Source: a bacterium (GTDB lineage Bacteria > Patescibacteriota > Minisyncoccia > Minisyncoccales > JANBVM01). Taken from it: a stretch of DNA of 64,000 nucleotides. Numbering within the stretch: position 1 is the stretch's first letter; each line of letters opens with the position of its first letter. The DNA lies in the NCBI GenBank assembly GCA_030588745.1, contig JAUUXB010000002.1:1-64000 (forward strand), written 5' to 3'. A program made the translations under genes and the position numbers. The notes beneath the pieces are model-generated. The model made no database searches. It had not been told where the DNA came from and saw only the letters and a list, made by a program, of their open reading frames with translations. Below are positions 2,765 through 15,746 of the stretch, one piece after another.

Positions 2765-3298
2765 CTAAATCGAGTTTTTGCTGTCATAATTATTATTTAT
2801 TGCTGTCCGAAGAGCTCTTAGGGCTCTGTGAAGCAATACTCTTGTTGTTTGCTTTGACCTGTTTAAAAGACCTGATATCTCAGATATAGGCAAATCATCT
2901 AAATAATGCCAAATAATAACATTTTGATAGTCCTCTTTTAAATGAAGCAAAGCTTGTCTTACTTTATCCATGTCTGAATTTAATAGGACACGTTTCTCTA
3001 AATCCTGTGTTGGGTCAATAATAGAAGGAGTAAAAGGATTATTTACTGATACTATATTAGCTCTGCCCTTTTGCCGATAGTGATCAATAACTAAATTATT
3101 CGCTGTTTTATATAAAAATGCTCGGACATTTCTAATTTCTCCTTGTTTTTCCTTAAAAACAACCCAAGTTCTTGAAAAAGCTTCTGAAGTTAAATCTTCA
3201 GCTGTTTCCTGAGAATTTACCTTGAAAAATACAAACTTATATATTTTATCTATATATCTATCGTATATCTGACTGAATTTTTTTCTAGGGTCTGACAT
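2765..3298 (-). CDS. ECF-type sigma-70 family RNA polymerase sigma factor
   Basis: This is a 177-aa protein with sigma region 2 near the N-terminus (YDRYIDKIYKFVFFKV, TAEDLTSEAFSRTW) and a region 4 helix-turn-helix near the C-terminus (ISEISGLLNRSKQTTRVLL). It lacks regions 1 and 3, so it belongs to the ECF group that redirects RNA polymerase to a small regulon. It sits between a DeoR-like regulator upstream and a DUF5667 membrane protein downstream, which together look like an envelope-response unit. Its upstream region carries an array of TAGGACA motifs that overlaps the end of the preceding gene. Confidence 0.9.
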   Translation of the reverse strand: MSDPRKKFSQIYDRYIDKIYKFVFFKVNSQETAEDLTSEAFSRTWVVFKEKQGEIRNVRAFLYKTANNLVIDHYRQKGRANIVSVNNPFTPSIIDPTQDLEKRVLLNSDMDKVRQALLHLKEDYQNVIIWHYLDDLPISEISGLLNRSKQTTRVLLHRALRALRTAINNNYDSKNSI

Positions 3299-3327
3299 GT
3301 GATTTGTAGTATAAATGGGTTTATAAA

Positions 3328-3382
3328 TAGGACAATGTCCTACTAATTATATTATATAATGTAGTGTCCTATATTGTCCTAT
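3328..3382 (-). promoter_or_regulatory. TAGGACA palindrome and tandem repeats upstream of the sigma gene
   Basis: TAGGACAATGTCCTA (3328-3342) is a perfect inverted repeat with 7-bp arms and a 1-nt centre. Two further direct copies of TGTCCTAT start at 3365 and 3375, exactly 10 bp apart (one helical turn), and overlap the stop codon of the preceding regulator gene. Read on the minus strand, AGGACA lies 18 nt upstream of a TATAAT. The array could therefore be an operator, a -35 element, or both. The binding protein is unknown; the adjacent DeoR-like protein or the ECF factor itself are obvious candidates. Confidence 0.5.
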
Positions 3383-4037
3383 CTATCTTGAGCTTGTAAA
3401 AAGTAGTGTTTCTTTCCCCTTTTCTTTCTACTAAACCATCTTTTAATAATTTACTGAAATCACGGCGTAAGGTTCTTTTGCTCACATCTGGAAAAACGTC
3501 TTTTACCTCCCAGACCTGAACACCTTCTTTTTGTTTTAAAATATCTAAGATTCTTTTCTGCCTGTCAGAAACCTCTGCTTTACTTTGCTCTAAACCTGGT
3601 GTTTCAGGCAGTAAAGGACTATCAAGCCCCTGGGTAAGCTGAACAGGTAATACTTCTTGTTCCACAATTTCTTTCTTTTCCCTTTGTGCTTCCATAGCTT
3701 TAGCAAAGGAGAGTTGTTTTTCTTGTTGTTTTGATTCTTTTAGCTCTTGTATGACTTTTTTGTACTCTTCCTGAAGGTTTAAAATGTCGTCTTTCTTAAC
3801 CCAGTTCTGAGCTTTAGCAATTTCAAAAAAACTATCCAGAGCCTCAAGCTGATTAGAGCGGTTTTTAACAATTGCTGGATCTTCAGGGCTGGAATCAGGA
3901 CTAAAGCAAACAACAAAATAAGCCAAAATCTCATCAGCCAATTCTCTCATCTGAAACCTCAAGGGTTCTTTTTTAGGAAAAAGCAATGTCAGTCTATATA
4001 GTTCATTTGTTATTTCAACTACGCGATTTTTGTCCAT
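3369..4037 (-). CDS. DeoR-like HTH transcriptional regulator
   Basis: This is a 222-aa protein. The first ~100 residues are a helical domain of unknown type (LRFQMRELADEILAYF). A Gln/Glu-rich, probably coiled linker follows at about 100-160. A winged-helix domain of the DeoR/HTH_11 kind forms the C-terminus (RQKRILDILKQKEGV ... SKRTLRRDFSKLLKDGLV). The HTH at the C-terminus is the reverse of classical DeoR proteins but is a layout seen in Patescibacteria. It has a good promoter of its own and precedes the sigma gene, so it may regulate that gene. Ligand and targets cannot be told from sequence. Confidence 0.7.
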   Translation of the reverse strand: MDKNRVVEITNELYRLTLLFPKKEPLRFQMRELADEILAYFVVCFSPDSSPEDPAIVKNRSNQLEALDSFFEIAKAQNWVKKDDILNLQEEYKKVIQELKESKQQEKQLSFAKAMEAQREKKEIVEQEVLPVQLTQGLDSPLLPETPGLEQSKAEVSDRQKRILDILKQKEGVQVWEVKDVFPDVSKRTLRRDFSKLLKDGLVERKGERNTTFYKLKIDRTI

Positions 4038-4052
4038 AGTTTTTATACAACA

Positions 4053-4104
4053 ACTATATCAAAAACAAGAACTATGGTCAAAAAAAATACAACAGTGCTG
4101 TTGT
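4053..4104 (-). promoter_or_regulatory. Promoter and palindromic operator candidate of the DeoR-like gene
   Basis: On the minus strand, TTGACC (4076-4081) and TATAGT (4053-4058) are 17 nt apart, close to sigma-70 consensus, leaving a leader of only about 9 nt before the ATG at 4037. Just upstream of the -35 box lies ACAACAGTGCTGTTGT (4089-4104), an inverted repeat with 7-bp arms. A TTGTTG half-like sequence also follows the -10 box. This fits autoregulation by a dimeric regulator, which is inferred. Confidence 0.55.
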
Positions 4105-4526
4105 AAAAAATATGGGGAAGGTTGCGTTTCCTTCCTATTCGTAAAGGCTACCGCCTAGGCTCGATCTCGATTACGATTCAATTATCCTCTGCATTCTTTT
4201 CCATCACATCACTCCATCAGTTTTGGTAAAGAACTGGATAGAGATCCTATCCATTTATAATTTATTATTTTTTAAAATTTCTGTCAACTGTGGAAAAAGT
4301 TCTGGAAAACTCAATAATAATTTAGGGATAACTTAGGGAATAACTTGAGAAAATCTTGTTCATATTAACTTCATAACAACTTTATATTATTCATATCTAT
4401 GTTTGTTGGCGATTTTTTATCGGTGCTCGGTCTAGCGGACGATTTTAGAACCTTGAAATGGGAGGAAGTGTTTGGTTATCCGGAGGGGGCTTTGAAACAA
4501 ATGAGAAAATTGTTGGTTATTGCTAC
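4105..4526. other. Long intergenic region, no gene seen
   Basis: This covers most of the 555-nt gap between divergent genes 3369-4037 and 4593-5735. No convincing coding frame was found. It contains, on the minus strand, a hairpin ggaagg/ccttcc followed by ATATTTTTT (about 4112-4140), a second hairpin ggatag/ctatcc near 4229-4248, and one copy of the recurrent GTTCTAA element at 4422-4454. It may hold a small RNA, but nothing matches an RNA family I recognise. Confidence 0.4.
4422..4454 (-). repeat. GTTCTAA/GGAGC element, copy A
   Basis: Minus-strand reading is GGTTCTAAAATCGTCC, then 6 nt, then CGAGC, followed by GATAAAAAATCGCCAA. It shares GGTTCTAA.ATCGTCC with copy G (55.7 kb) and AAAAAATCGCCAA with copy D (53.7 kb), so the family relationship is clear although the terminator half is decayed here. 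Confidence 0.5.
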
Positions 4527-4555
4527 TTGAAAGGTCTTCTAGCAAATGTTAAAAT
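4527..4555 (+). promoter_or_regulatory. Promoter of the SppA/ClpP-fold protease gene
   Basis: TTGAAA (4527-4532), a 17-nt spacer and TAAAAT (4550-4555) form a good sigma-70 promoter on the plus strand. Transcription would start near 4562, giving a leader of about 30 nt before the ATG at 4593. Confidence 0.55.
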
Positions 4556-4592
4556 AAATCAGCGACCGAAATCCTCAAAATTTTGAATAAAC

Positions 4593-5735
4593 ATGATAGG
4601 CAAAGAATTAATCAACCAAATTCAAGAAATAAGGAAGTCAAAAGTAGTAGCCTACATAACAGGAGATAGGCCATTTTTTGCAACGGCTAGAATAGCAGAA
4701 GATGCGGTAAGGCCTCTCTATGAACATTTACTTTCAATCGGAAAGAATAAGAAGATAGACCTATTTCTCTATAGTAGAGGAGGAGACGTTAGTATCCCAT
4801 GGCGCATAGTCAGCATGTTTAGAGAATTCTGTGATGAATTTTCTGTAATAGTGTCTTACAAGGCTCACAGTGCAGCTACTCTAATATCTCTAGGCGCAGA
4901 CAGAATATTAATGGGGAAGAAAGCAGAACTCGGACCAATAGACCCTACGCTGGTTAAAACAACAGCTGGAGGAACAGCATTGTCTCGACAGGAAATTAGC
5001 GTTGAAGATGTAAATTCTTATATTTCTTTCTTAAGAGAGAAGGCAAATATTAATGACCAATCTGCTTTGGCACAAATGCTTTCTATTCTTGCCAATAATC
5101 TCACTCCCCTTACCCTCGGAGCCGTGAATCGACAAAGCTCCCATATTAGGTTGGTAGCAAGGAAACTTTTACTTTCACGGAAAGAGAAACTTGAGGAAGA
5201 AAAAATAAACTCAATTATAGAAACTCTCACAGAGAGAATTTACTCTCATGGTCATGCAATAGGCAGAAAAGAAGCCAAGGAAATCGGCTTATCAATTAAA
5301 ATGCCAGACAAACAGCTGGAAGAAACTTCATGGAATCTCTACTTGAAGTATGAAGATTTCTTAAAGCTTAATGAACCTTTGGATCCATTAGTTATTTTGA
5401 CAGGAAGAGAAGAACAGCATTTAGAAAATATTCATATTGGTGTTATAGAAAGTGAGAATAAAACACATGTATTCCCGATACAAGTCGACCTTAAAAGAAA
5501 AAGGCAAGTCTCACCCAATTTACAGATAAACCTCAATCTAACATTAAATTTACCTCCAAGCATTAGGCCAGAAAATATTCCACAGAATACCCAGCAAATC
5601 GTACAGCAAATGGTCAACCAGGCCGCTCGAAATCTACAACCACTTGTTCAACAGGAAATCATAAGACAATCACCAGAAATAGGTTTAGATATGAAAATAT
5701 ATGGAGGTAGATGGCAAAAACATAATCAAGAATAA
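4593..5735 (+). CDS. SDH/SppA-like serine protease of the ClpP/crotonase fold
   Basis: This is a 380-aa protein. Residues ~10-130 resemble the serine dehydrogenase proteinase (SDH_sah, PF01972) branch of the ClpP/crotonase fold. It has a glycine-rich strand-turn (LFLYSRGGDVSIPWRI), the nucleophile-elbow-like segment KAHSAATLISLGADRI with candidate Ser in HSAA, and a downstream GPIDP motif typical of membrane-associated SppA/SDH proteases. No signal peptide or TM segment is visible, so it is probably cytoplasmic. The C-terminal ~120 residues are unlike known domains and become Gln/Asn-rich. It forms a two-gene unit with the next gene (3-nt gap). Function beyond 'protease-like' is not known. 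Confidence 0.7.
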   Translation: MIGKELINQIQEIRKSKVVAYITGDRPFFATARIAEDAVRPLYEHLLSIGKNKKIDLFLYSRGGDVSIPWRIVSMFREFCDEFSVIVSYKAHSAATLISLGADRILMGKKAELGPIDPTLVKTTAGGTALSRQEISVEDVNSYISFLREKANINDQSALAQMLSILANNLTPLTLGAVNRQSSHIRLVARKLLLSRKEKLEEEKINSIIETLTERIYSHGHAIGRKEAKEIGLSIKMPDKQLEETSWNLYLKYEDFLKLNEPLDPLVILTGREEQHLENIHIGVIESENKTHVFPIQVDLKRKRQVSPNLQINLNLTLNLPPSIRPENIPQNTQQIVQQMVNQAARNLQPLVQQEIIRQSPEIGLDMKIYGGRWQKHNQE

Positions 5736-5738
5736 AAG

Positions 5739-5945
5739 ATGAAAGAAAGACAGGTAAAACTTAACATCAATTTCAGAATCTTGCCCTTTGGACATGCTTC
5801 GGTTGAGATAAAAGATCGTAAGGGAAAAAGAAAAAAAGAAACCCCTCTGTATGCTGAACCGAAAACTTCTAATCTCGAGTGGATGGAAATTACTTTTGAT
5901 GGAATAGATTATATAGTGCCAAAGACAACAGGTGGCTTCTTATGA
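5739..5945 (+). CDS. Small protein encoded with the SDH-like protease
   Basis: This 68-aa, Lys-rich protein begins 3 nt after the protease stop, so the two are almost certainly co-transcribed and possibly act together. It has no TM segment or Cys motif. Predicted strands (VKLNINFRILPFG, ASVEIKDRKGK, WMEITFDGIDYIV) suggest a small beta-rich fold. No family recognised. It ends in TGA, evidence against UGA reassignment in this genome. Confidence 0.6.
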   Translation: MKERQVKLNINFRILPFGHASVEIKDRKGKRKKETPLYAEPKTSNLEWMEITFDGIDYIVPKTTGGFL

Positions 5946-6019
5946 AGCTAGTTGATGATTAATATTCTGAAGAAAATAATTAGAAACCAATAAAACATCT
6001 CTGTCCCGAAATAAGAAAT

Positions 6020-6040
6020 GCCCATCGCTGGGCTTTTTGG
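6020..6040. terminator. Bidirectional intrinsic terminator
   Basis: gcccatcgctgggc (6020-6033) forms a 5-bp GC stem with a 4-nt loop, followed by ctttttgg on the plus strand. It would end the protease unit on the plus strand and also lies at the end of the HEPN/HNH operon on the minus strand, immediately after element copy B. Confidence 0.7.
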
Positions 6041-6062
6041 TTTGCCGGTCGGTCTCAAACTC
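6039..6062 (-). repeat. GTTCTAA/GGAGC element, copy B (divergent)
   Basis: Minus-strand reading starts GTTTGAGACCGACCGG and is followed within 10 nt by the gcccagcgatgggc hairpin. GTTTGAGACCGAC matches GTTCGAGACCGAC of copy H at 56.1 kb. Again the order is gene end, element, hairpin. Confidence 0.45.
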
Positions 6063-6078
6063 AAATAAAATTTGGGGG

Positions 6079-6870
6079 CTAAGAAAAATGTTTAATAAGT
6101 TGGAAAATATAATTAGCGTATTCTGAAAAAATCTGTAGGTTAGCATAGACAACCTTCGCATTTAACTGTTTACCAGTCGGATGACCAGCACTGTTTCTAT
6201 TCAAACGAATAAAGTTAAACACCCCATCAAGATAGGTCTCCCAGTCTCCCTGTAACTCCTTAGGTAAATCTTTTACATCGTTTACAAGCTCTTGCTTAAA
6301 TTCTTTATATTGAGTGTAAATAAATCTGTCTTTTATTTTCTTTTCAAATGTTGATTTGCGCATAGCATCTTTAATCCAAGTCAAATAAGCTTCAATGAGA
6401 AGTAACATTAAATTTTCTGAAGCAACCCCTAAGGTTAAAGTAGCAGATAACAGATGCCGCCTATTATAGGCTGTAACAGATTCGCCAATATAAGCAAGGG
6501 TTATATCATCTATATCTGGCACCCTTTCTTTTAATGCTTTTACATATCCTTCTGGGTCATATGGCAACCAATCCTCTTGCTGAAAAGCTTCTTTACCATA
6601 TTCGGTAATGCTTAACCATGGGTAGCCACTATTTTTGTCTCCGGGAAGACCGGGGTATAGAAAACCATTGTTTATAAACTCTTGGACAATTTCTCTAATG
6701 ATCGAGTAGGTCTCATCGTGTTGATAGCCAGGAACATCTCTAAGAGAATCGCGGAACAAAGAATACAAATTTCCCATTTGTATCTTTGGTCTCTTGTAGG
6801 GATTGTCAGGAGGGGGAGTCTGTTGTTTAAAGTATTCAATTAATTTATTTTTTATTTCTTCTCTGTCCAT
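6079..6870 (-). CDS. HEPN-like protein, partner of an HNH nuclease
   Basis: This is a 263-aa protein. The C-terminal helical region contains FIRLNRNSAGHPTG, which fits the R-x4-H signature of HEPN domains (Arg, Asn as the polar second residue, His). Such domains are usually metal-independent RNases in toxin-antitoxin and phage-defence systems. The N-terminal ~100 residues look like a small winged-helix-type module (VQEFINNGFLYPGL ... LSITEYGKEAF). It begins 13 nt after the HNH gene stop and is the last gene of the operon. Alternative: a non-catalytic HEPN-like scaffold. A defence role is inferred from gene pairing. Confidence 0.55.
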   Translation of the reverse strand: MDREEIKNKLIEYFKQQTPPPDNPYKRPKIQMGNLYSLFRDSLRDVPGYQHDETYSIIREIVQEFINNGFLYPGLPGDKNSGYPWLSITEYGKEAFQQEDWLPYDPEGYVKALKERVPDIDDITLAYIGESVTAYNRRHLLSATLTLGVASENLMLLLIEAYLTWIKDAMRKSTFEKKIKDRFIYTQYKEFKQELVNDVKDLPKELQGDWETYLDGVFNFIRLNRNSAGHPTGKQLNAKVVYANLQIFSEYANYIFQLIKHFS

Positions 6871-6883
6871 AAAACTTTATAAA

Positions 6884-7609
6884 TTATGTTTTTATATTAC
6901 TACCCGAAACAGCAATCCAAATTTCAAATTTTCCCCATATTACAACATGATATAATGTCGAACCATATATGTCCTCTGCGTGATGAACAGTAAAACCGGG
7001 ACCCCTATTAACCTTAATTCCATTGACCCGCAGGAATGCATTTAATTTTTCTAGTTCTGAATTGATAATATTCCTTACTACCGGATGGATAGTTTTTATT
7101 TTTCTATCATCCTTAATTAATTTATTTTTCAATTTAAATTCTAATCCTCTAACAAGTTTATTAGCAAAAGGATCCAATAACTTTGATACTGAAACACGAA
7201 GCACCATTGATTTGCCGGGGACGGTGGGACCAAAATTTCTCATAAGGCCTTTGGGCACATCTTCTGTGTGTATAGAATCCTTTATAATCTTTTCGAGATC
7301 GGCTCCTTTACGCATTCTGCTTATTCCTTTTTCGGTAGACAATGGAATGAGCTTACGGATAACATCTTCTGAAATGCCAGAAGCAGCAATGTTCTCAAAT
7401 CCTACACAGACAGCAATTTTTTTGTATAACTCTTCTTCAATCTTCCCTAATCTGTTATTACACTCAAAGCAAGCAGGGGCAACCCATTTCTCAATATCTT
7501 TCGGTGTTGAATCTGGGTACCATGATTTTGGAAAAATATGGTCTTTTGTAAGTTCTTCGAAATAATTTAGGCAATAAACACAGTGTTGATTGTAAAATTT
7601 CTTAGGCAT
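6884..7609 (-). CDS. HNH endonuclease
   Basis: This is a 241-aa protein. Its N-terminal HNH domain of the HNH_5 kind has CVYC (residues ~11-14), the core KDHIFPKSW (~23-31) and the zinc-binding ACFECNNRLGKIEEE (~46-60). The His of DHIF and the Asn residues of CNN fit the metal/catalytic positions. The remaining ~180 residues are of unknown fold and may recognise a target. It sits in a tight operon between a Cys-rich membrane protein upstream (12-nt gap) and the HEPN-like gene downstream. It carries no methyltransferase or helicase partner, unlike classical restriction systems. Confidence 0.75.
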   Translation of the reverse strand: MPKKFYNQHCVYCLNYFEELTKDHIFPKSWYPDSTPKDIEKWVAPACFECNNRLGKIEEELYKKIAVCVGFENIAASGISEDVIRKLIPLSTEKGISRMRKGADLEKIIKDSIHTEDVPKGLMRNFGPTVPGKSMVLRVSVSKLLDPFANKLVRGLEFKLKNKLIKDDRKIKTIHPVVRNIINSELEKLNAFLRVNGIKVNRGPGFTVHHAEDIYGSTLYHVVIWGKFEIWIAVSGSNIKT

Positions 7610-7621
7610 TATGAAAATTTG

Positions 7622-8326
7622 TTACTTAGCGATAGGTCTTTTCTTGTTTTTAAATGTGTAGAAAAGATATGCCACAATTCCTATTCCTATAATCCACCCT
7701 AAAATAGATCCTTCACCGTTACCTTCTTTAGGAATTTCAGCAGTAAGTTCCTCTGGCGCTGGCAAACCTCTTTGTGGTGCTGGTGGTTGCTCGCTGGACT
7801 CTTCCTTAGCTGGTTGTTCTTCCTCGACAGCGGGCTCCTCGGTTGATTGTTTCTTATCCGGGGGCTGCTCCTCAATTGGTTCTGGCTTAACGCACTTACC
7901 ATTAATTAGCTTGTATCCATAATCACACTCGCAACTCTTTGACAAGGTATCGTAGCTTGAATGAAAACCGTATCTATCATGACAGTAAATATCAGTATCA
8001 ATACATTCCCCTTCTGAAGCTATATATCCATAGTTACACTCGCAAGAATCAGAAGAAGAATTATAAGTGGAATGGCTAGGACACTTCGGCGTTGGTTTAG
8101 CAGGACACCTTGGATAATAGGGAGCACACTTTGCAGAGAGAGAAGTACCGTCGCAACACATATACCCAACATTAACACCATCGGGACATTGGTAGGTACA
8201 GACTCCACCGTGCCAAGAACAACAACCCCTTCTTGCTTCTACATTATTAATGGGTAATACAGTAAGAAGAAATGGAATAAGAATTAATAATGATAGCAGT
8301 ATCTTTTTCTTAAGTTTTTCTTTCAT
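7622..8326 (-). CDS. Secreted Cys-rich, membrane-anchored protein with EGF-like repeats
   Basis: This is a 234-aa protein. It has an N-terminal signal peptide (MKEKLKKKILLSLLILIPFLL ... VEA) and a Cys-rich module RRGCCSWHGGVC...CCDGTSLSA. Two EGF-like repeats follow (CPSHSTYNSSSDSCECNYGY and a second ending CECDYGYKL). Then come a Pro/Glu-rich stalk and a C-terminal TM helix (ILGWIIGIGIVAYLFY) with a basic tail. The bulk would be extracellular and disulfide-bonded. Its start overlaps the stop of the preceding 28-aa ORF by 4 nt (ATGA), indicating translational coupling. It lies between the XRE regulator and the HNH gene, an unusual place for a surface protein. Confidence 0.75.
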   Translation of the reverse strand: MKEKLKKKILLSLLILIPFLLTVLPINNVEARRGCCSWHGGVCTYQCPDGVNVGYMCCDGTSLSAKCAPYYPRCPAKPTPKCPSHSTYNSSSDSCECNYGYIASEGECIDTDIYCHDRYGFHSSYDTLSKSCECDYGYKLINGKCVKPEPIEEQPPDKKQSTEEPAVEEEQPAKEESSEQPPAPQRGLPAPEELTAEIPKEGNGEGSILGWIIGIGIVAYLFYTFKNKKRPIAK

Positions 8327-8409
8327 GAATGTTTCTCTATTTTTAGAGTAGCTCTATTTTTTATTTTTGCATTACCCAAAAAAGGAACATTAACTTTTGC
8401 ATAATCCAT
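8323..8409 (-). CDS. 28-aa small ORF coupled to the Cys-rich protein gene
   Basis: This ORF is too short for the ORF track. The minus strand reads ATG 2 nt after the XRE gene stop (8412) and runs 28 codons (MDYAKVNVPF...) to a TGA at 8325-8323. That TGA overlaps the next ATG as ATGA. The exact fit between two gene borders and the 4-nt overlap argue for real translation. The peptide is basic and has no TM helix. It may be a coupling peptide or an uncharacterised small component of the operon. Confidence 0.5.
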   Translation of the reverse strand: MDYAKVNVPFLGNAKIKNRATLKIEKHS

Positions 8410-8411
8410 CT

Positions 8412-8789
8412 TTAAGAGCCCCGAATAAGTTCTATTAATCGATCTATTTCTTCTTTTGTTGGTTTTTTATTACGTAAAGTCCTAAAAAAGGCAGGTAGGT
8501 ATTTTATAGCATTTTTTTCTAACAGAATGTCTCTGGGAATTATACCCTGTGCTATTACTGCTTCATCAATAAACTTTTGGATATTTTCTTTATTTTTTGA
8601 CATTCCTAGAGCTGTCGCCCACCTTTTTAGTGTTTTTTCATCAGAAGGGGGCGAAATTATACCTCTTTCTATTTTACTCCAGTTGCTTGGATCGTAATTC
8701 ACCAATCTACATGCTTTTCTAAGAGTTAATCCTTTTTTGATTCGTAAATCTTTTAAATTTTCTCCGAATTGTTTAAGATTTTTATACAT
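8412..8789 (-). CDS. XRE-family HTH regulator
   Basis: This is a 125-aa protein. Residues ~5-62 form a Cro/C1-type helix-turn-helix (LKDLRIKKGLTLRKACRLVNYDPSNWSKIERG). The C-terminal ~60 residues are helical and may dimerise. It is the first gene of the minus-strand operon with the 28-aa ORF, Cys-rich protein, HNH and HEPN genes. Its own promoter is covered by an inverted repeat, so it probably represses the whole unit, as controllers of toxic or defence modules often do. Confidence 0.85.
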   Translation of the reverse strand: MYKNLKQFGENLKDLRIKKGLTLRKACRLVNYDPSNWSKIERGIISPPSDEKTLKRWATALGMSKNKENIQKFIDEAVIAQGIIPRDILLEKNAIKYLPAFFRTLRNKKPTKEEIDRLIELIRGS

Positions 8790-8820
8790 ATAATAAAAAA
8801 TTGATATTAATTCTTGTATT

Positions 8821-8856
8821 GTGGTATAATTCTACCACACCTGCTAGCCATGTCAA
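8821..8856 (-). promoter_or_regulatory. Promoter with palindromic operator for the XRE-HNH-HEPN operon
   Basis: On the minus strand, TTGACA (8851-8856), a 16-nt spacer and TAGAAT (8829-8834) form a strong promoter. GTGGTA-taattc-TACCAC (8821-8838) is a perfect 6-bp inverted repeat that covers the -10 box. A dimeric XRE repressor bound there would block initiation. That the adjacent XRE protein binds it is inferred. Confidence 0.65.
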
Positions 8857-8895
8857 TAATGAAGCTGTGGAAAACCTCATCATATTCTTGCTTAT

Positions 8896-8949
8896 TTGAC
8901 AGACCCCATATGCTTCAATAAAGTAAGAATGTAAGAAAGTATTACATTC
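8896..8949 (+). promoter_or_regulatory. Promoter with downstream operator for the AbrB-like gene
   Basis: TTGACA (8896-8901), a 17-nt spacer and TAAAGT (8919-8924) precede a perfect 8-bp inverted repeat GAATGTAA-7 nt-TTACATTC (8927-8949). The repeat sits directly over the expected start site. This geometry is typical of autorepression by a small dimeric regulator such as the AbrB-type product of this gene. Confidence 0.6.
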
Positions 8950-8961
8950 ATCAATAAAAAT

Positions 8962-9204
8962 ATGATTACTATAACTAAAATCACAAGCAAAGGACAAATT
9001 ACTCTTCCAGCTAAATGGAGACGTAATTTTTCCACTAATCAATATATTATTGAAGAAAAAAAAGACAGATTAGAGATAAAACCATTGATTCTTAAAGAGT
9101 TGTATAAAAAAAACGAATACACTGTTTTTGATGCTATTCGCGACAACAAAGGAAAAGGAATCAAGGCAAAAGATTTAATCAAAATCTTGAAAAAGACAGT
9201 TTAG
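8962..9204 (+). CDS. SpoVT/AbrB-type DNA-binding protein
   Basis: This 80-aa protein starts with the AbrB/MazE swapped-hairpin motif (ITKITSKGQITLPAKWRR). The C-terminal half is basic (NKGKGIKAKDLIKILKKTV). Such proteins are usually antitoxins or transition-state regulators. No toxin ORF follows: a strong terminator lies 34 nt downstream and the next gene is on the other strand, so it appears to be an orphan regulator. It is transcribed divergently from the XRE operon, and the two promoters lie close together. Confidence 0.8.
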   Translation: MITITKITSKGQITLPAKWRRNFSTNQYIIEEKKDRLEIKPLILKELYKKNEYTVFDAIRDNKGKGIKAKDLIKILKKTV

Positions 9205-9237
9205 CATGGACAAAATAGAGGGACTAAAAAAATAACA

Positions 9238-9268
9238 CCCCACTTTTTTTATTATGTGGGGTTTTTTT
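9238..9268 (+). terminator. Intrinsic terminator after the AbrB-like gene
   Basis: CCCCAC (9238-9243) pairs with GTGGGG (9256-9261) and is followed by seven T. A decayed copy of the GTTCTAA element (minus-strand CAGTTCTAATCTTATT) sits just beside it at about 9270-9290. Confidence 0.8.
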
Positions 9269-9344
9269 ATAATAAGATTAGAACTGGCTTTTTAAAAAGA
9301 TTTTCCATTAAAAATGCTAAGCCCTCAGAAAGAAAACATATAAG

Positions 9345-9704
9345 TTACTCTTCCCAATCGAGCTGACTTTCAGGAATACCCAATGATCTCCCGTAATCTT
9401 CAGCTTCTTTTCTTTTTTCTTTATCTCCCTTGTTGTATTTAAAAATCTTTTCAGGAAATATTACATATTCCTTGTTATCTACTGAAAAGTTAGCATACCA
9501 CTTTGGTTTAAGTGAATAACTTAACTTCTCAGCTACTTCATCAGCTCTATTTACTTCTCCTTCAAAATAAATAGCTGTCCAAACCTTTGGCTGGTAATCA
9601 GCGGCGTTACTAATATTCCAAACATCTGTCTTGGTAATCTCTAATTCTTCCAAGATGCTCTTGTCTTTTAAACTTTCTTTGAGTAAAAGCCCTTTAAATT
9701 TCAT
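9345..9704 (-). CDS. Conserved-looking hypothetical protein next to a DNA glycosylase
   Basis: This is a 119-aa acidic protein with no TM segment or Cys motif. The start MKFKGLLLKESLKDK, alternating strands (VWTAIYFEGEV, WYANFSVDNKEYVIFP) and a Lys/Glu-rich C-terminal helix suggest a small alpha/beta fold. It starts 9 nt after the glycosylase stop, so the two are co-transcribed and may be functionally linked. I do not recognise the family. Confidence 0.6.
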   Translation of the reverse strand: MKFKGLLLKESLKDKSILEELEITKTDVWNISNAADYQPKVWTAIYFEGEVNRADEVAEKLSYSLKPKWYANFSVDNKEYVIFPEKIFKYNKGDKEKRKEAEDYGRSLGIPESQLDWEE

Positions 9705-9713
9705 ATGTTTATA

Positions 9714-10688
9714 TTATAATCTAATCTCTTTTTCTAACCAATCTATTTTTTGAGTTTTTCTCCTCCAAAAAATATCTTCCCAGATATAGTGAAAAGCTAA
9801 TTTCTCCCAACCCTTATATTTTTTCCTAAAAAAATCAAGAATTTTTTTGACTGAAACCAACTTCTTATTAAATAATAGTTTGGACATTATCTTCTGTTCC
9901 CAGGGTGGAATAGTTGCTAAATGATCGCAATGATAAAAATCTTCAAACAAAAGATATTCAACAGACGCAGGCCCTATACCATAAAGCTTTAACGCTTCTT
10001 TCTTCAATTCCTCCCTTTCCATTTTTCTCATTTCAAGCTCATCAATTTCGCCTTTAGTAAACTGTTCACTAATTCTTTTTAAGAATTTAGTCCTATAACC
10101 CAATTTTAAATCTCTCAAAACTTGTTCTGAAACTTTAGCTATTGCTTTTGGTTCCCAAAAAGTAACGAGAGTTTTATTATCAAACTTAATTTTCTTGCCA
10201 AATTCACCAAAAAGATTTTCCAGCATCTGATAAGTTCTCCGAACAGTAGCATTCTGCAAGACAATATAAATAATCAAGGTTTCGTATAAGGAATTAGCAG
10301 CTACTGGTTTCATCCCTCGCCATCTCTTTAATAAGGGTTTAAGAAATTTGTCTTTCTTAAATCTTTTATCAAATTCTGAAATATCTTGTCTTAAATTGAA
10401 TCTCCACCCTATTTCTGAAACCAAGTTTTGCTTAAATTCTTTTGATAAAACTTCTTTTGAATATACGGTTAATTTTATTTTGGGCTTAACTATCGTCCCC
10501 TTATTTTCTAATTTTAGTCCTAAATACTTTCCTTTCCAAACCATTGTTATCCAGTATTTACCTTTTTCCCATTCATTATCAGAAGATGGAAAATGCGACG
10601 GTTTGTAAATGGTCGCATCAAAATTATAAGGGGAAACTGGTTTCAGTATAGTTGAAAAAGTTTTGTTAAGATTATTTGTATTTATCAT
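9714..10688 (-). CDS. HhH-GPD superfamily DNA glycosylase
   Basis: This is a 324-aa protein. Residues ~1-110 form a beta-rich N-terminal domain like that of AlkA/OGG. Residues ~125-300 are the helical HhH-GPD domain with the hairpin LKKEALKLYGIGPASVEYLL. It would excise damaged bases in base-excision repair. The catalytic Asp expected about 20 residues after the hairpin (usually in a P-V/I-D context) is not seen; the segment reads HLATIPPWEQKI, so Pro occupies that place and the following Glu might substitute. Substrate is unassigned. Confidence 0.75.
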   Translation of the reverse strand: MINTNNLNKTFSTILKPVSPYNFDATIYKPSHFPSSDNEWEKGKYWITMVWKGKYLGLKLENKGTIVKPKIKLTVYSKEVLSKEFKQNLVSEIGWRFNLRQDISEFDKRFKKDKFLKPLLKRWRGMKPVAANSLYETLIIYIVLQNATVRRTYQMLENLFGEFGKKIKFDNKTLVTFWEPKAIAKVSEQVLRDLKLGYRTKFLKRISEQFTKGEIDELEMRKMEREELKKEALKLYGIGPASVEYLLFEDFYHCDHLATIPPWEQKIMSKLLFNKKLVSVKKILDFFRKKYKGWEKLAFHYIWEDIFWRRKTQKIDWLEKEIRL

Positions 10689-10710
10689 ATTCTTTTATTT
10701 TAGCAGAAAA

Positions 10711-10733
10711 ATCGTCTTTTTGACGATTTCTCT
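10711..10733 (-). terminator. Intrinsic terminator downstream of element copy C
   Basis: On the minus strand aaatcgtc-aaaaa-gacgattt forms an 8-bp stem followed by TTC. It lies between element C and the glycosylase gene, so it ends transcripts reading through from the 126-aa gene upstream. Confidence 0.6.
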
Positions 10734-10767
10734 ATACAATTACACCTAATTATATGCAATTTTATCT

Positions 10768-10796
10768 GCTCCGGGAGACGGACTCCGTTAGAACCT
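10768..10796 (-). repeat. GTTCTAA/GGAGC element, copy C
   Basis: Minus-strand reading is AGGTTCTAACGGAGTCC, then 3 nt, then TCCCGGAGC. It lies between a first terminator (10820-10841) and a second (10711-10733). The flank TTTTTTTATTTCAA between the first terminator and the element is shared with copy G. Confidence 0.65.
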
Positions 10797-10819
10797 GCTT
10801 AGTGGATTGAAATAAAAAA

Positions 10820-10841
10820 AGCGACTTGCTTTTAAGTCACT
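10820..10841 (-). terminator. Intrinsic terminator of the 126-aa gene
   Basis: AGTGACTT/AAGTCGCT forms an 8-bp stem (one G-T pair) with a 6-nt loop on the minus strand, followed by a T7 tract, 23 nt after the stop codon. Confidence 0.75.
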
Positions 10842-10864
10842 ATAAATAATCTTATACCTTCTTA

Positions 10865-11245
10865 TCACCCGTCTATAGTCTCTGTATATATGTTCACCTT
10901 TCTGGCTGCATCCATAAGTACTGAATCTGGTGCCCAGTTAGAAGAACAAACAACGGTAATTTCTTTTTCTCCACTCAACCTCACTAATGCTTTTGTTAAA
11001 AATTGGTCTTCATTTTCTACCTCCATCAGCCAAGTAATACTGGGGTAGGGGCTCCAAGAACCATCTTTGTTCTGTATTTCTACCTCTTTCAGAAGCATTA
11101 CTTTCTTTCCTTCTTTCGTTGAAAGATTAGGATCATATTTACAGTGACATGGAAGTAATTCTACGTTATCAGGATCAAAACGAATAGTAATATCTTTTCT
11201 GGGATATCCCCTTAAAAAGTCTTTTGTTCTTACTGCTTTCTTCAT
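10865..11245 (-). CDS. Hypothetical protein with strong ribosome binding site
   Basis: This is a 126-aa protein of unknown family. It contains one Cys pair (LPCHCKYDPN) and mixed strands, with no TM segment or signal. It has a recognisable Shine-Dalgarno (GAGGTGG) upstream of the ATG, unlike neighbouring housekeeping genes. It is followed by its own terminator, then element copy C and a second terminator. That package of strong RBS, private terminator and element is shared with the small genes at 54-56 kb and suggests a self-contained acquired unit. Confidence 0.65.
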   Translation of the reverse strand: MKKAVRTKDFLRGYPRKDITIRFDPDNVELLPCHCKYDPNLSTKEGKKVMLLKEVEIQNKDGSWSPYPSITWLMEVENEDQFLTKALVRLSGEKEITVVCSSNWAPDSVLMDAARKVNIYTETIDG

Positions 11246-11318
11246 TTAAAAGAACCACCTCATTTTGTTGACTATTTTTACATTACTAGCTTTAATTAAA
11301 AAATCAAACCACAAATAT

Positions 11319-11432
11319 TTAAAAAACGTAATGCTCTAAGGCATAATAAAACATCCAGCCAATAACAAAAAAAGCTATTGCAAGGTCAAATAGTAAAAAA
11401 AGTATGGCCCCTTTTTGATTGTTAACTTTCAT
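11319..11432 (-). CDS. 37-aa single-pass membrane peptide
   Basis: This ORF is too short for the ORF track. The minus strand starts at ATG 11432, 8 nt after the stop of the pseudoprotease gene. It encodes MKVNNQKGAILFLLFDLAIA... followed by an aromatic stretch and a TAA at 11321-11319. Nearly the whole peptide is a hydrophobic helix with a basic N-terminus, so an inner-membrane peptide in the same operon as the trypsin-like protein is plausible. It has no Shine-Dalgarno; translation would rely on coupling. Alternatively it is a chance ORF. Confidence 0.45.
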   Translation of the reverse strand: MKVNNQKGAILFLLFDLAIAFFVIGWMFYYALEHYVF

Positions 11433-11440
11433 ATAATTAT

Positions 11441-12121
11441 TTAAAAACCGGCAAAAGTCCTGATTATATCAACAGGAACAATGCTTACTATTCCCCAATA
11501 ATCAATAGTTGCCAGACCCAAGAATTCACCTTTAATGTTAAATAAAGGACTGCCAACCATAGTACTTCTTTCAAGAATGTTTGTTGAAATCAGGTTTTTG
11601 TAAAAATAGGAAACAACCCCTTCATTAACTCCACGGGTAAATTCTTCTACTCCGTAAATTGTTCCAATTAAGAAAATTCTTTCTCCTGTTTTTATTTTGT
11701 TTAAATCAGCAAAACCAACTGTTGGTAAATTATTCTGTTCAAGTTTAATTAAAGCCAGATTATTAGTTAAATCTCTTTTTAAAATCTGATAAGGGGATGG
11801 TTTTCCTTCAACAAAAAATAAGAATTCAGAACCCTGAGGAACCAACTCAGCCAAAGTTACTATCAAACCATCTGAGGTTAGAACCATTGCTGAGCCATTG
11901 AGTATTTTTTCTTTACTGGTTGTTTTAATACCAACAACTGTTTTTTCAACTTTTTCAACAGCGTTTTCAAGAGCAGTATTTTCCTCAATAATAATCTCTT
12001 TCCTTTCAGTAACATAAACAGGCCTTTCAATAAAATATGGCCAAATAAACTGATTAGCAAAAAGCCCTCCTAAAATACCAACAACAAATATTGCTAAAAC
12101 CTGTAAAACCTTTTTTTTCAT
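11441..12121 (-). CDS. Membrane-anchored trypsin-like protein lacking the catalytic triad
   Basis: This is a 226-aa protein. An N-terminal signal anchor (LQVLAIFVVGILGGLF) is followed by an S1C/HtrA-like chymotrypsin fold. The strand order is recognisable, but all three catalytic positions are changed. The His segment reads DGLIVTLAEL instead of DGxIVTNxHV. The Asp segment reads LTNNLALIKL, and the Ser loop reads MVGSPLFN instead of GNSGGPL. No PDZ domain is present. It is therefore probably a pseudoprotease: a binding or regulatory protein facing the extracytoplasmic side. An intact HtrA is encoded about 4 kb away. Confidence 0.7.
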   Translation of the reverse strand: MKKKVLQVLAIFVVGILGGLFANQFIWPYFIERPVYVTERKEIIIEENTALENAVEKVEKTVVGIKTTSKEKILNGSAMVLTSDGLIVTLAELVPQGSEFLFFVEGKPSPYQILKRDLTNNLALIKLEQNNLPTVGFADLNKIKTGERIFLIGTIYGVEEFTRGVNEGVVSYFYKNLISTNILERSTMVGSPLFNIKGEFLGLATIDYWGIVSIVPVDIIRTFAGF

Positions 12122-12163
12122 ATAACTAAACAGAAATTCTTGGTCTTTTTCTTTGCTTTATTT
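12065..12163. repeat. Direct repeat copy 1 flanking the 12290-12904 gene
   Basis: This imperfect ~95-bp segment matches 12986-13079, with a few substitutions and two 3-nt gaps. It includes the first codons of the trypsin-like gene plus, just upstream of them, a remnant of the clpB 3' end that would still read KQRKRPRISV followed by TAG. The two copies bracket one gene, so that gene was inserted at, or duplicated across, the original clpB/trypsin-like junction. Confidence 0.75.
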
Positions 12164-12289
12164 CATTTATTTTTGAAACAAACCTCATTGTTCTATAACT
12201 CTATATTAGATTTTTCTATAAATCTGTCAATTTTTATTCAATAAAAAAACAGTGCTATAATTTGGCACTGCCACGAATTAATTATTAAT

Positions 12290-12904
12290 TTATCCCACTA
12301 AGTAAAAAGGGCTTTCAAGAACAGACTTGAGAGAAAACCAATTTTCCTTAACACTCTCTTTAATTCTTATGATTTGCCATCTTCCTCTGAAAAAAATCTT
12401 GAAATTCCTGAAGAGGTTTATTCTCATTTCTTTTAAATTTTCCATTTCTTTCAAGCCTTTCTTAAATTCATTTATACTATTAAGCCAAGAATTTGCTTTA
12501 CAAACCACTGTTTCTGTTCTTGGCTCTTCTTTTCTATAATTTTCTAGTAATGTGGTTTGAAATTCAAATATAAAGAAACCGACAGGAGCATTTATTTCTG
12601 GAATCCCTTTTCTTAAACTAGATTTCTCCAAAAGTTTAACAATTTCTTCTAATTCTTCATGACTAAATTCTTCAACGTATTCAACGTTGGGAATTAAGTC
12701 TTGCCCTAACTTAACCTTTTTGTAAAAACCTTTTTTTAAGGTAATGTGGGATGAACTTTCTTCTTTTTGGTAAAAAAATAAATCCAAACTACCCATTAAG
12801 CCAATGTAATACATTAAGACATAATCTGAAGGATTTATGCTCACAATCCATAAATCTAACTTAAATTCTTTACCAGTTGAATCAATAATACCTATCTCAC
12901 TCAT
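12290..12904 (-). CDS. Unrecognised protein inserted between clpB and the pseudoprotease gene
   Basis: This is a 204-aa protein of unknown family with no signal peptide. The N-terminal half is predicted beta-rich (FKLDLWIVSINPSDYVLMYYI) and the C-terminal ~60 residues are helical and basic. It is bracketed by ~95-bp direct repeats made of the clpB 3' end and the trypsin-like gene 5' end, evidence that it was added to this locus. Large unassigned stretches upstream and downstream carry no clear promoter. Confidence 0.55.
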   Translation of the reverse strand: MSEIGIIDSTGKEFKLDLWIVSINPSDYVLMYYIGLMGSLDLFFYQKEESSSHITLKKGFYKKVKLGQDLIPNVEYVEEFSHEELEEIVKLLEKSSLRKGIPEINAPVGFFIFEFQTTLLENYRKEEPRTETVVCKANSWLNSINEFKKGLKEMENLKEMRINLFRNFKIFFRGRWQIIRIKESVKENWFSLKSVLESPFYLVG

Positions 12905-12985
12905 TTTTCTCCTTCCTTTTTCAATTTTTAATATCTAATTCAGATTACAAAATTTCAAGAAAAAATCAATCCTTTTCTTCATGGA

Positions 12986-13079
12986 CCCTCCTGAAATACC
13001 AACAAATATTGCTAAAATCTGTAAAACCTTTTTTATATAATTAAACAGAAACTCTTGGTCTTTTTCTTTGCTTCATTTT
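12986..13079. repeat. Direct repeat copy 2 at the clpB 3' end
   Basis: This is the partner of 12065-12163. It contains the functional clpB C-terminal codons ([10 protein letters not shown]) and stop. Downstream on the minus strand is a decayed copy of the trypsin-like gene start, whose ATG has become ATA (ATATAAAAAAGG against ATATGAAAAAAAAGG). The functional halves are thus split between the two copies. Confidence 0.75.
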
Positions 13080-15746
13080 AATTAAATCTTTTGTACTTAA
13101 AAATATTATTTTCTCATTTTGAAAATCAATTACTACTCTTTTTTCTTTTTCAAAATCTCCAGAAATAATCTTTAAAGACAATGGGTCTAAAATCTTTTTT
13201 TGAATCACTCTTTTTAATGGCCTGGCTCCTAAATTTGAGTCAAAACCTTTTTGAGCAACAAAGTCCTTAACCGACTCTGTAATTTGAACATCAATATCTT
13301 TTTTCCCAAGTCTTTGAACAACTTTTTCAAGTTCAAGATTAACAATTTTCTTAATCTCTGGCTTGTTAAGATAATCAAAAATTATGATTTCATCAATTCT
13401 GTTCAAAAACTCTGGCCTGAAATCATGTTTTAGGGCTGAAAGCACTTTTTCTCTTAAAGATTCTCTTTGCTTTTTTTCCTCATCTCCGCCAATAAAACCT
13501 AGTGAAGCCTGCCGGGCAATAATATCACTTCCTACATTTGAAGTCATAATCAAAGTTGCATTTTTAAAAGAAGCTACTCTTCCTTTTGCATCAGTAAGCC
13601 GTCCATCTTCTAAAATCTGAAGAAGAATATTAAACACCTCTGGATGAGCTTTTTCAATTTCATCTAATAGTATTACACTATACGGCCTTCTCCTTATCTT
13701 TTCAGTTAACTGACCGCCTTCATCATAACCAACATAGCCAGGAGGAGAACCTATCATTTTGGAAACAGTGTGTTTTTCCATATATTCTGACATATCTAAT
13801 CTGACCATTGCGTTTTCATCATTGAACAGGAAATTAGCTAAAGCTTTGGCAGTTTCTGTTTTTCCCACTCCAGTAGGCCCTAAAAACATAAATGAACCCA
13901 ATGGCCTATTTTCCTCAGAAATTCCAGCCCTTGCCCGTCTAATAGCATTAGAAATTGCAAGAATAGCCTGTTTTTGACCAATAACCCGCCTGCTAATAAT
14001 GTTCTCCATTTTCTCTAGCTTTTTAACTTCTTTTTCAAGCAATCTTGTTAAAGGAATTCCTGTCCACCTTGAAACTACTTTAACAATATCTTCTTCTGTT
14101 GCCTCGTCCTTTAAAAGAGGGTTTTTTCCCTGAATTCTTACTAATTTTTTCTCAGCACTTTTAAGTTCTTTTAAAAGCTCAGGGATTTTTCCATATTTTA
14201 ACTCAGCTACTTTTTGCAAATTAGCTTCAGAAATCCCTTTTTCAGCTTCAAAGCGGGCATTTTCAATTTCTGATTTAATGGTTTTAATTTTTACAATCAA
14301 ATCCTTTTCTGTTTTCCATTTAGTTTGAATTGCTCTTTGTCTTTCTGTTAAATCTGAAAGTTGTCTTGAGATTACTTTAAGCTTAATTTTGATTCCTTTT
14401 TCTTTTTTCAGAGCTTCTTGTTTAATTTGTAATTTATTAATTTCTCTTTTTAAATTCTCTAATTTAGAGGGTTCTGATTCAATTTCCAATCTTAAAGCAC
14501 TCATTGCTTCATCCATTAAATCAACTGCTTTGTCAGGCAAAAACCTGTCAGAAATATATCTAGCAGCTAACTGAACACAAGTGACTAAAGCAGAATCCTT
14601 GATTTTTACGCCATGATGAAGCTCATATTTTTCTTTTATTCCTCTTAAAATTAAAATAGTGTCTTCAATTGAAGGCTCTGCCACATAAATTGGCTGAAAC
14701 CTTCGTTCTAATGTCTGATCTTTTTCAATGTATTTCTGATATTCCTTTATGGTTGTAGCTCCAATTGCGCGCAGTTCTCCACGAGCCAAAGCTGGCTTTA
14801 AAAGATTTGAAGCATCAATTGCACCTTCAGCAGCTCCTGCTCCAACCAATGTATGAAGCTCATCAATGAATAATAAATACTTGCCATCAGCCCTATTAAT
14901 TTCTTTTATAAATGCTTTGATCCTGTCTTCAAATTCACCTCTATACCTTGTTCCTGCTATTAAAGCTCCTAAGTCCATTCCTATCACCTCTTTATCTTTC
15001 AAGCTCTCAGGCACCTGACCCGTAATAATACGTTGGGCTAAGCCCTCAACAATAGCTGTTTTTCCAACACCTGCTTCACCAATTAAAACCGGGTTGTTTT
15101 TTCTTCTTCGTGAAAGTATCTGCATTAACCTTCTTATTTCATTCTCTCTGCCAACTACTGGGTCGAGTTTGCCCTTTCTGGCTAAAGAAGTAAGGTTGCG
15201 AGCATATTTCTCAATTACCTGATATTTTGTTTCAGGTTTTGGGTCAGTAATTCTATGACCTCCTCTTAGCTTGGCTAGTTCAGTTGAAAATATCTGGTAA
15301 TCTAATCTGCCGAACTGCAAAGAACCAACCTCTGTTTTTGGCTTTAAAAAACTGGCTTTATCCAAGATTTCTTTTGCTTTTGTATCAGCATCCAAAAGAC
15401 CTAAGAATAAATGCTCAATAGAAATAAATTCATCTCCCATTCTGCTGGCTTCTTTTTTTGCTTTGTCTAAAATCTTTGCCATATCCTGAGTAAGATAAAG
15501 CTGGCCCAGGGTCCGAGGGGTAATGATTGTAGGAATCTTGCCCAAACTTAATTCTGTTTTTTTCTTTAATCCTTCAATGTCAACACCAAGCCGTTCAAGA
15601 ACATTTACAATAATACTTTCTGACTGCTTAAGCAAAACATAAAGTAAGTGCAAAGCATCAATCTGCTGCTGCTCTTTTTTTCTGGCTAATTCCTGGGCAG
15701 ACATTATTGCCTCTTGGCTTTTATGAGTAAATTGTCCTCCGTTCAT
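13041..15746 (-). CDS. clpB: ClpB-type AAA+ disaggregase
   Basis: This is a 901-aa protein with the full ClpB layout. Clp_N repeats span residues ~1-150. The first AAA+ domain has Walker [10 protein letters not shown] near 225. A coiled-coil middle domain follows at ~420-540 ([19 protein letters not shown]). The second AAA+ domain has GPTGVGKTE near 630 and Walker [12 protein letters not shown], and a D2-small domain closes the protein. The middle domain marks ClpB rather than ClpA/C; there is no ClpP gene in the window. It extracts polypeptides from aggregates with DnaK in the cytoplasm. Its promoter has the -10 box 8 nt before the ATG. Confidence 0.93.

Follow-up and report, generated by a model that had tools for sequence, protein, structure and literature searches.

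A probable mosaic of a truncated XRE–ImmA module, a cysteine-rich surface protein gene and two nuclease-like genes at a variable chromosomal site in Patescibacteria

In the ImmR–ImmA (ICEBs1/TnSmu1), CapH–CapP (CBASS) and DdrO–IrrE (Deinococcus) systems a protease cleaves the repressor with which it is paired, usually upon DNA damage, and the XRE–M78 pairs of the CapH/CapP type regulate defence in CBASS (PMC10233336). HEPN proteins are recognised by the motif R-x4-6-H with a polar residue following the arginine (PMC3710099), and HEPN guard RNases have been described in restriction-modification operons (Anantharaman 2013, PMC3710099). Changing clusters of defence genes are also known from the small genomes of Patescibacteria, as the defence islands of CPR bacteria (PMC12259885). 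Here we compare these systems with a block of five minus-strand ORFs (6079–8856) located at the start of a contig in a Patescibacteria draft genome. The window, i.e. the whole stretch of DNA that was analysed, is the 64 kb opening this contig; the genome comprises 626 kb in 30 contigs and is ~96% complete with 5% estimated contamination. The features of the locus are as follows.

2765–4037, minus strand: second border of the site, consisting of genes for a 222-aa protein (3369–4037) and an ECF-type sigma factor (2765–3298)
6020–6033, plus strand: predicted terminator hairpin, mainly for the convergent gene at 5739–5945
6079–6870, minus strand: predicted winged-helix plus HEPN protein, 263 aa, R225-N-S-A-G-H230-P-T-G (profile–profile match to DUF4145)
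6884–7609, minus strand: predicted HNH endonuclease, 241 aa (Pfam HNH, E = 4.6e-5)
7622–8326, minus strand: Cys-rich secreted or membrane protein, 234 aa (80–86% identity to G087, about 70% to G021)
8323–8409, minus strand: 28-aa ORF, made up of the ~22 N-terminal codons left of a truncated immA gene (Peptidase_M78) and an extension into the leader of the next gene
8344–8355, minus strand: recombination junction (blastn coordinates and alignments)
8412–8789, minus strand: XRE repressor, 125 aa, with a predicted ImmR/CapH-like role (HTH_31, E = 4.6e-11)
8820–8856, minus strand: predicted promoter with operator, −35 TTGACA and −10 TAGAAT within the palindrome TGTGGTAGAATTATACCACA
11441–15746, minus strand: first border of the site, consisting of genes for a trypsin-like protease (11441–12121) and a ClpB/ClpC-type ATPase (13041–15746)

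An earlier, sequence-only reading of this DNA described five close-packed genes on the minus strand, and the ORF coordinates and gaps agree with that description. The intergenic spacing between the XRE, 28-aa, Cys-rich, HNH and HEPN reading frames is 2, −4, 12 and 13 nt, respectively, and the end of the 28-aa ORF overlaps the start codon of the Cys-rich gene (ATGA). A minus-strand promoter (TTGACA-16-TAGAAT, 11/12 matches) lies at 8856–8829. Its −10 box is covered by a perfect palindrome (TGTGGTA-N6-TACCACA, 8820–8839), as that reading had also noted, and exact copies of this palindrome occur nowhere else in the whole genome. The terminator that had been assigned to the operon did not withstand inspection. 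The hairpin at 6020–6033 carries its T-run on the plus strand and has merely ATTTCTTATT as its minus-strand tail; because the T-run is on the plus strand, this hairpin should serve mainly the convergent gene (5739–5945). Two further observations concern the surroundings of the block. A gene for a ClpP-like SDH-type serine protease followed by a 68-aa ORF (4593–5945) is convergent to the HEPN gene and missing in the five nearest genomes, and an orphan MazE/AbrB-like antitoxin gene with no adjoining toxin gene is found at 8962–9204.

Assignment of the first gene to the XRE family was confirmed by its HTH_31 match, and the protein also matched capH weakly (1.8e-6). A search of 147 related genomes yielded four XRE homologs (64–72% identity). 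The gene next after XRE encodes an ImmA-type protease in all four homolog loci, intact in two (Peptidase_M78/PF06114, E = 7.9e-12 and 5.2e-10) and damaged in the other two. Thus, as in the three described systems, an M78 metallopeptidase gene comes after the XRE repressor gene in these homolog loci. The promoter with an operator over its −10 box was also present upstream of the XRE homologs in G080, G110 and G047, and in weaker form in G075, with one mismatched base in some copies of the palindrome. As operator and promoter are kept upstream of the homologs, the palindrome can be assigned to the XRE–immA module. An operator-covered promoter is likewise common to the ImmR–ImmA, CapH–CapP and DdrO–IrrE systems and suggests autorepression, which the palindrome probably serves here. 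Judged from its relatives, the XRE gene supplies the repressor half of an XRE–ImmA/IrrE (Peptidase_M78) pair. The window differs from the described systems in that it retains only ~22 protease codons and that ICE and CBASS genes are absent nearby. As to the two damaged homolog loci, immA contains a frame break in G047 (L077:998–1593) and has lost its N-terminus in G075 (L076:5977–6558), as if the protease were repeatedly lost while the repressor was kept; sequencing error could also account for this damage.

The 28-aa ORF proved to be real but not a separate component of the locus. It begins at the position at which immA starts relative to XRE in the homolog loci, and over its first 22 residues it aligns with the N-terminus of the ImmA proteins of G080 and G110, at a score that 0 of 20000 shuffled sequences attained. 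At the DNA level, similarity to the XRE–immA loci ends at 8352–8355, and similarity to the G087 Cys-rich gene and its leader begins at 8350 (82% over 736 bases by blastn). Because of the ImmA N-terminal match and the switch in homology at ~8350, we identify the ORF as an immA stump joined to the Cys-rich gene's leader; by homology, it is a 5' remnant of a known regulatory protease gene. The window lacks the remainder of immA and holds no complete M78 metallopeptidase gene beside XRE, and a search of the organism's own ~96% complete genome, run without a positive control, gave no ImmA match even at an E-value of 10. An insertion of a Cys-rich–HNH–HEPN block into an intact immA was also considered, but with the remaining part of that gene missing from the window it was rejected.

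A junction of this kind could also be a chimera of metagenome assembly, in which case the XRE and Cys-rich genes would not be truly adjacent at 8350. In favour of such an error, the genome is a draft in 30 contigs with 5% estimated contamination. However, the flanks on both sides (clpC and trypsin on one, 3369–4037 and the ECF sigma factor on the other) are syntenic in relatives, and a Cys-rich gene occupies the same site in G021, so that a chimera would require two false joins. We therefore regard an assembly artefact as very improbable.

The Cys-rich protein had been labelled EGF-like, a label that we do not retain, as no EGF-domain match rose above the curated cut-off. Besides the close relatives in G087 and G021, further relatives, shorter or partial, were found in other genomes of the same order. 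The G021 gene occupies the chromosomal site that is syntenic to that of the window gene, where its neighbours are quite different, and none of the Cys-rich loci examined contained an XRE, HNH or HEPN gene beside the Cys-rich gene. It is most readily understood as a lineage-specific surface protein that is resident in this Patescibacteria order.

The HNH assignment was upheld by the Pfam HNH match. A three-sequence profile recovered about 18 distinct relatives across several bacterial phyla, including Patescibacteria, Nitrospirae, Cyanobacteria, Acidobacteria and Proteobacteria; none were found among viral contigs. Invariant positions in the family are C10, C13, D23, H24, C47, C50 and N51, among them the D-H pair and the zinc cysteines, and the HNH core with its zinc cysteines is present in the window protein, which has D in place of the middle N. 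The ~50-residue core weakly matches PtuB/PDC-M01B of PADLOC, whereas the remainder of the protein is unrelated to it and its relatives are mostly orphan genes in varied surroundings. A PtuA-like ATPase gene, as in Septu (PtuAB), was not found in the block, and comparison of the HNH model with the PDB using Foldseek gave no match below 0.001. The closest relative (L008, 62%) lacks all of the other four genes in its neighbourhood. Two other loci deserve mention. In a Magasanikbacteria genome the gene 7 nt upstream of an HNH relative (L009:6653–8735) encodes a SEC-C protein that carries the motif RNQIVH, and at L023:6309–8789 an HNH relative is divergent to a gene that by eye resembles a DNA cytosine methyltransferase gene, an arrangement that could represent a restriction pair.

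The 263-aa protein had been called HEPN-like, and profile–profile comparison supports this: its C-terminal domain matched DUF4145 with 95.6% probability (E = 1.2e-8), compared to 0.1% for the negative control, and 4 of 10 single relatives matched DUF4145 weakly. Relatives of the whole protein number 10–11 and come from plasmids, viral contigs and other Patescibacteria; none were obtained from annotated phages or by a single-sequence scan of genome contigs. E130, E152, R225 and H230 are invariant across 11 relatives. All of them contain R-x4-H, nearly all contain R-N-x-[AV]-G-H-P-T-G, and the R225-N226-x3-H230 of the window protein satisfies the HEPN rule for spacing and for a polar residue after the arginine. 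The AlphaFold model (pLDDT 79) consists of an N-terminal part of helices and strands and a C-terminal helical bundle that places the motif between its last two helices. Modelling, which had been proposed as a check, thus gave a helical bundle containing the motif, but not a significant structural match: Foldseek returned no PDB match below 0.001, and the weak matches to the N-terminal part included many winged-helix proteins. Sequence comparison with solved structures produced noise, with HEPN (Dandelion) as the top profile match at a non-significant E of 0.065. In common with DUF4145 HEPN proteins (PF13643), the window protein has a C-terminal helical domain and the conserved R, N and H; it differs from them in its N-terminal winged-helix-like domain, its RN-x-AGHPTG signature and its lack of a zinc ribbon.

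On an Agrobacterium plasmid, one HEPN relative lies beside genes for AbiE and CBASS, another has a recombinase neighbour on a Mycobacterium plasmid, another adjoins DUF499, and the one in phage genome L028 is surrounded by phage structural genes. The relative in G532 (69% identical) adjoins HsdR and a SMODS/SLATT CBASS pair. These neighbourhoods fit a mobile defence gene. The position of the G532 relative, directly behind hsdR and the SMODS/SLATT pair, recalls that of the HEPN guard RNases, whereas the window gene has an HNH gene as its neighbour and no restriction genes. The G532 locus (L079:225–5837) is of interest in itself, in that a type I restriction operon encloses the CBASS pair, with the winged-helix HEPN gene directly after it. 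None of the Pfam, NCBIfam, PADLOC or named PHROG models covers this unnamed family, which recurs in defence settings while being absent from the defence libraries searched, and it provides a useful lead.

Having assigned the individual genes, we asked whether they form one system, as the sequence-only reading had proposed; that reading was to be abandoned if the HNH–HEPN pair was not conserved. In the collections searched, none of ~18 HNH relatives had a HEPN gene nearby and none of ~11 HEPN relatives had an HNH gene nearby, and no two of the XRE, Cys-rich, HNH and HEPN genes occurred together in relatives. The five genes are accordingly not taken here as one new system. A narrower possibility is a two-gene defence module of HNH and HEPN, one cutting DNA and the other RNA, that was inserted as a unit behind the Cys-rich gene. 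The two genes are neighbours on the same strand with 13 nt between them, HEPN relatives adjoin restriction genes, and guard RNases are known in R-M operons (PMC3710099). However, there is no second pair among the ~18 and ~11 relatives, and the candidate neighbours of HNH with HEPN-like motifs in L007 (250 aa), L009 (SEC-C) and L015 (219 aa) received no profile support, although the single-sequence tests used for them are weak. A joint insertion is possible, if doubtful.

The original proposal went further, with a Cys-rich sensor at the cell surface that controls HNH and HEPN nucleases inside the cell, in a new defence operon governed by XRE. Tight packing behind a single strong promoter is what such an operon would show, and the control of CBASS by CapH/CapP (PMC10233336) offers a precedent for an XRE–M78 pair governing defence. 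These points have to be set against the finding that XRE, Cys-rich, HNH and HEPN genes are never together pairwise in relatives, that the 28-aa ORF is a gene stump, and that the Cys-rich gene, a resident of the order, occurs there without the nucleases. As this stump is all that remains of immA and the Cys-rich protein is found apart from the other four genes, the link between surface sensor and nucleases lacks comparative support, and we consider it improbable.

The most likely explanation, to which we assign a probability of about 0.77, is that the locus is a mosaic, seemingly put together by chance at a variable chromosomal site, rather than one co-evolved system. An XRE–ImmA module would have become joined to the Cys-rich gene's leader by an event within immA, either a deletion or an illegitimate recombination, which left behind a 22-codon stump whose stop overlaps the start of the surface gene. 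The surface gene would thereby have captured the promoter of the orphan repressor. The HNH and winged-helix HEPN genes would have been acquired separately; they now lie behind the surface gene, and a single transcript probably covers them together with XRE and the Cys-rich gene. We infer autorepression, with XRE bound to the palindrome that covers the −10 box. In the absence of ImmA it would not be cleavable in the usual way, and the operon is therefore expected to be held at a low basal level. As for the products, the winged helix of the HEPN protein is a probable sensor or binding module for nucleic acid, and the R-x4-H site of the protein probably cuts RNA in an abortive-infection type of defence, while HNH probably cuts DNA independently of HEPN. 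What speaks against a mere mosaic is that spacings of 2, −4, 12 and 13 nt and the ATGA overlap resemble a translated, coupled operon, and selection may have acted after assembly. It is conceivable, though unlikely, that since the fusion the orphan XRE runs a working operon of surface protein and nucleases, and that the winged-helix HEPN proteins are an undescribed stand-alone defence family. In that event, derepression by a phage or host signal would turn on a change of the cell surface and nucleic-acid cutting together. More generally, the mosaic reading implies that a regulator cut and rejoined in this way, with its small ORF and tight spacing, can imitate a new operon.

The site itself is bordered by the trypsin-like protease and clpC genes on one side and the 222-aa protein and ECF sigma factor genes on the other. 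This border order is kept in ten other genomes (G003, G004, G008, G021, G024, G026, G091, G014, G030 and G086), in three of which (G014, G030 and G086) the trypsin-like gene is missing and clpC stands alone. The distance between borders is 133 bp in G026 and 4–9 kb in the rest. The cargo includes HicA, NYN and WYL genes in G004 and G021, genes for a CAP12-type TIR protein and ParE in G003, and Eco57I-type restriction genes in G024 and G086; some of these sites have no recognisable defence gene. It appears that the clpC/trypsin–ECF sigma site often collects defence or toxin-antitoxin genes, for which 'hot spot' is a description and not a statistic. The defence-type setting that had been suggested for the block is upheld. 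Compared to the defence islands of CPR bacteria (PMC12259885), what we see here is one fixed chromosomal site with swapped cargo and one empty example. A fixed site in Patescibacteria at which anti-phage and toxin-antitoxin genes are exchanged is a second useful lead, as a place to seek new defence genes in bacteria that are mostly unculturable. The loci with swapped cargo are window 2765–15746, L073, L115, L116, L118, L121–L123, L125, L126 and L128, with L125 being the empty one (133 bp).
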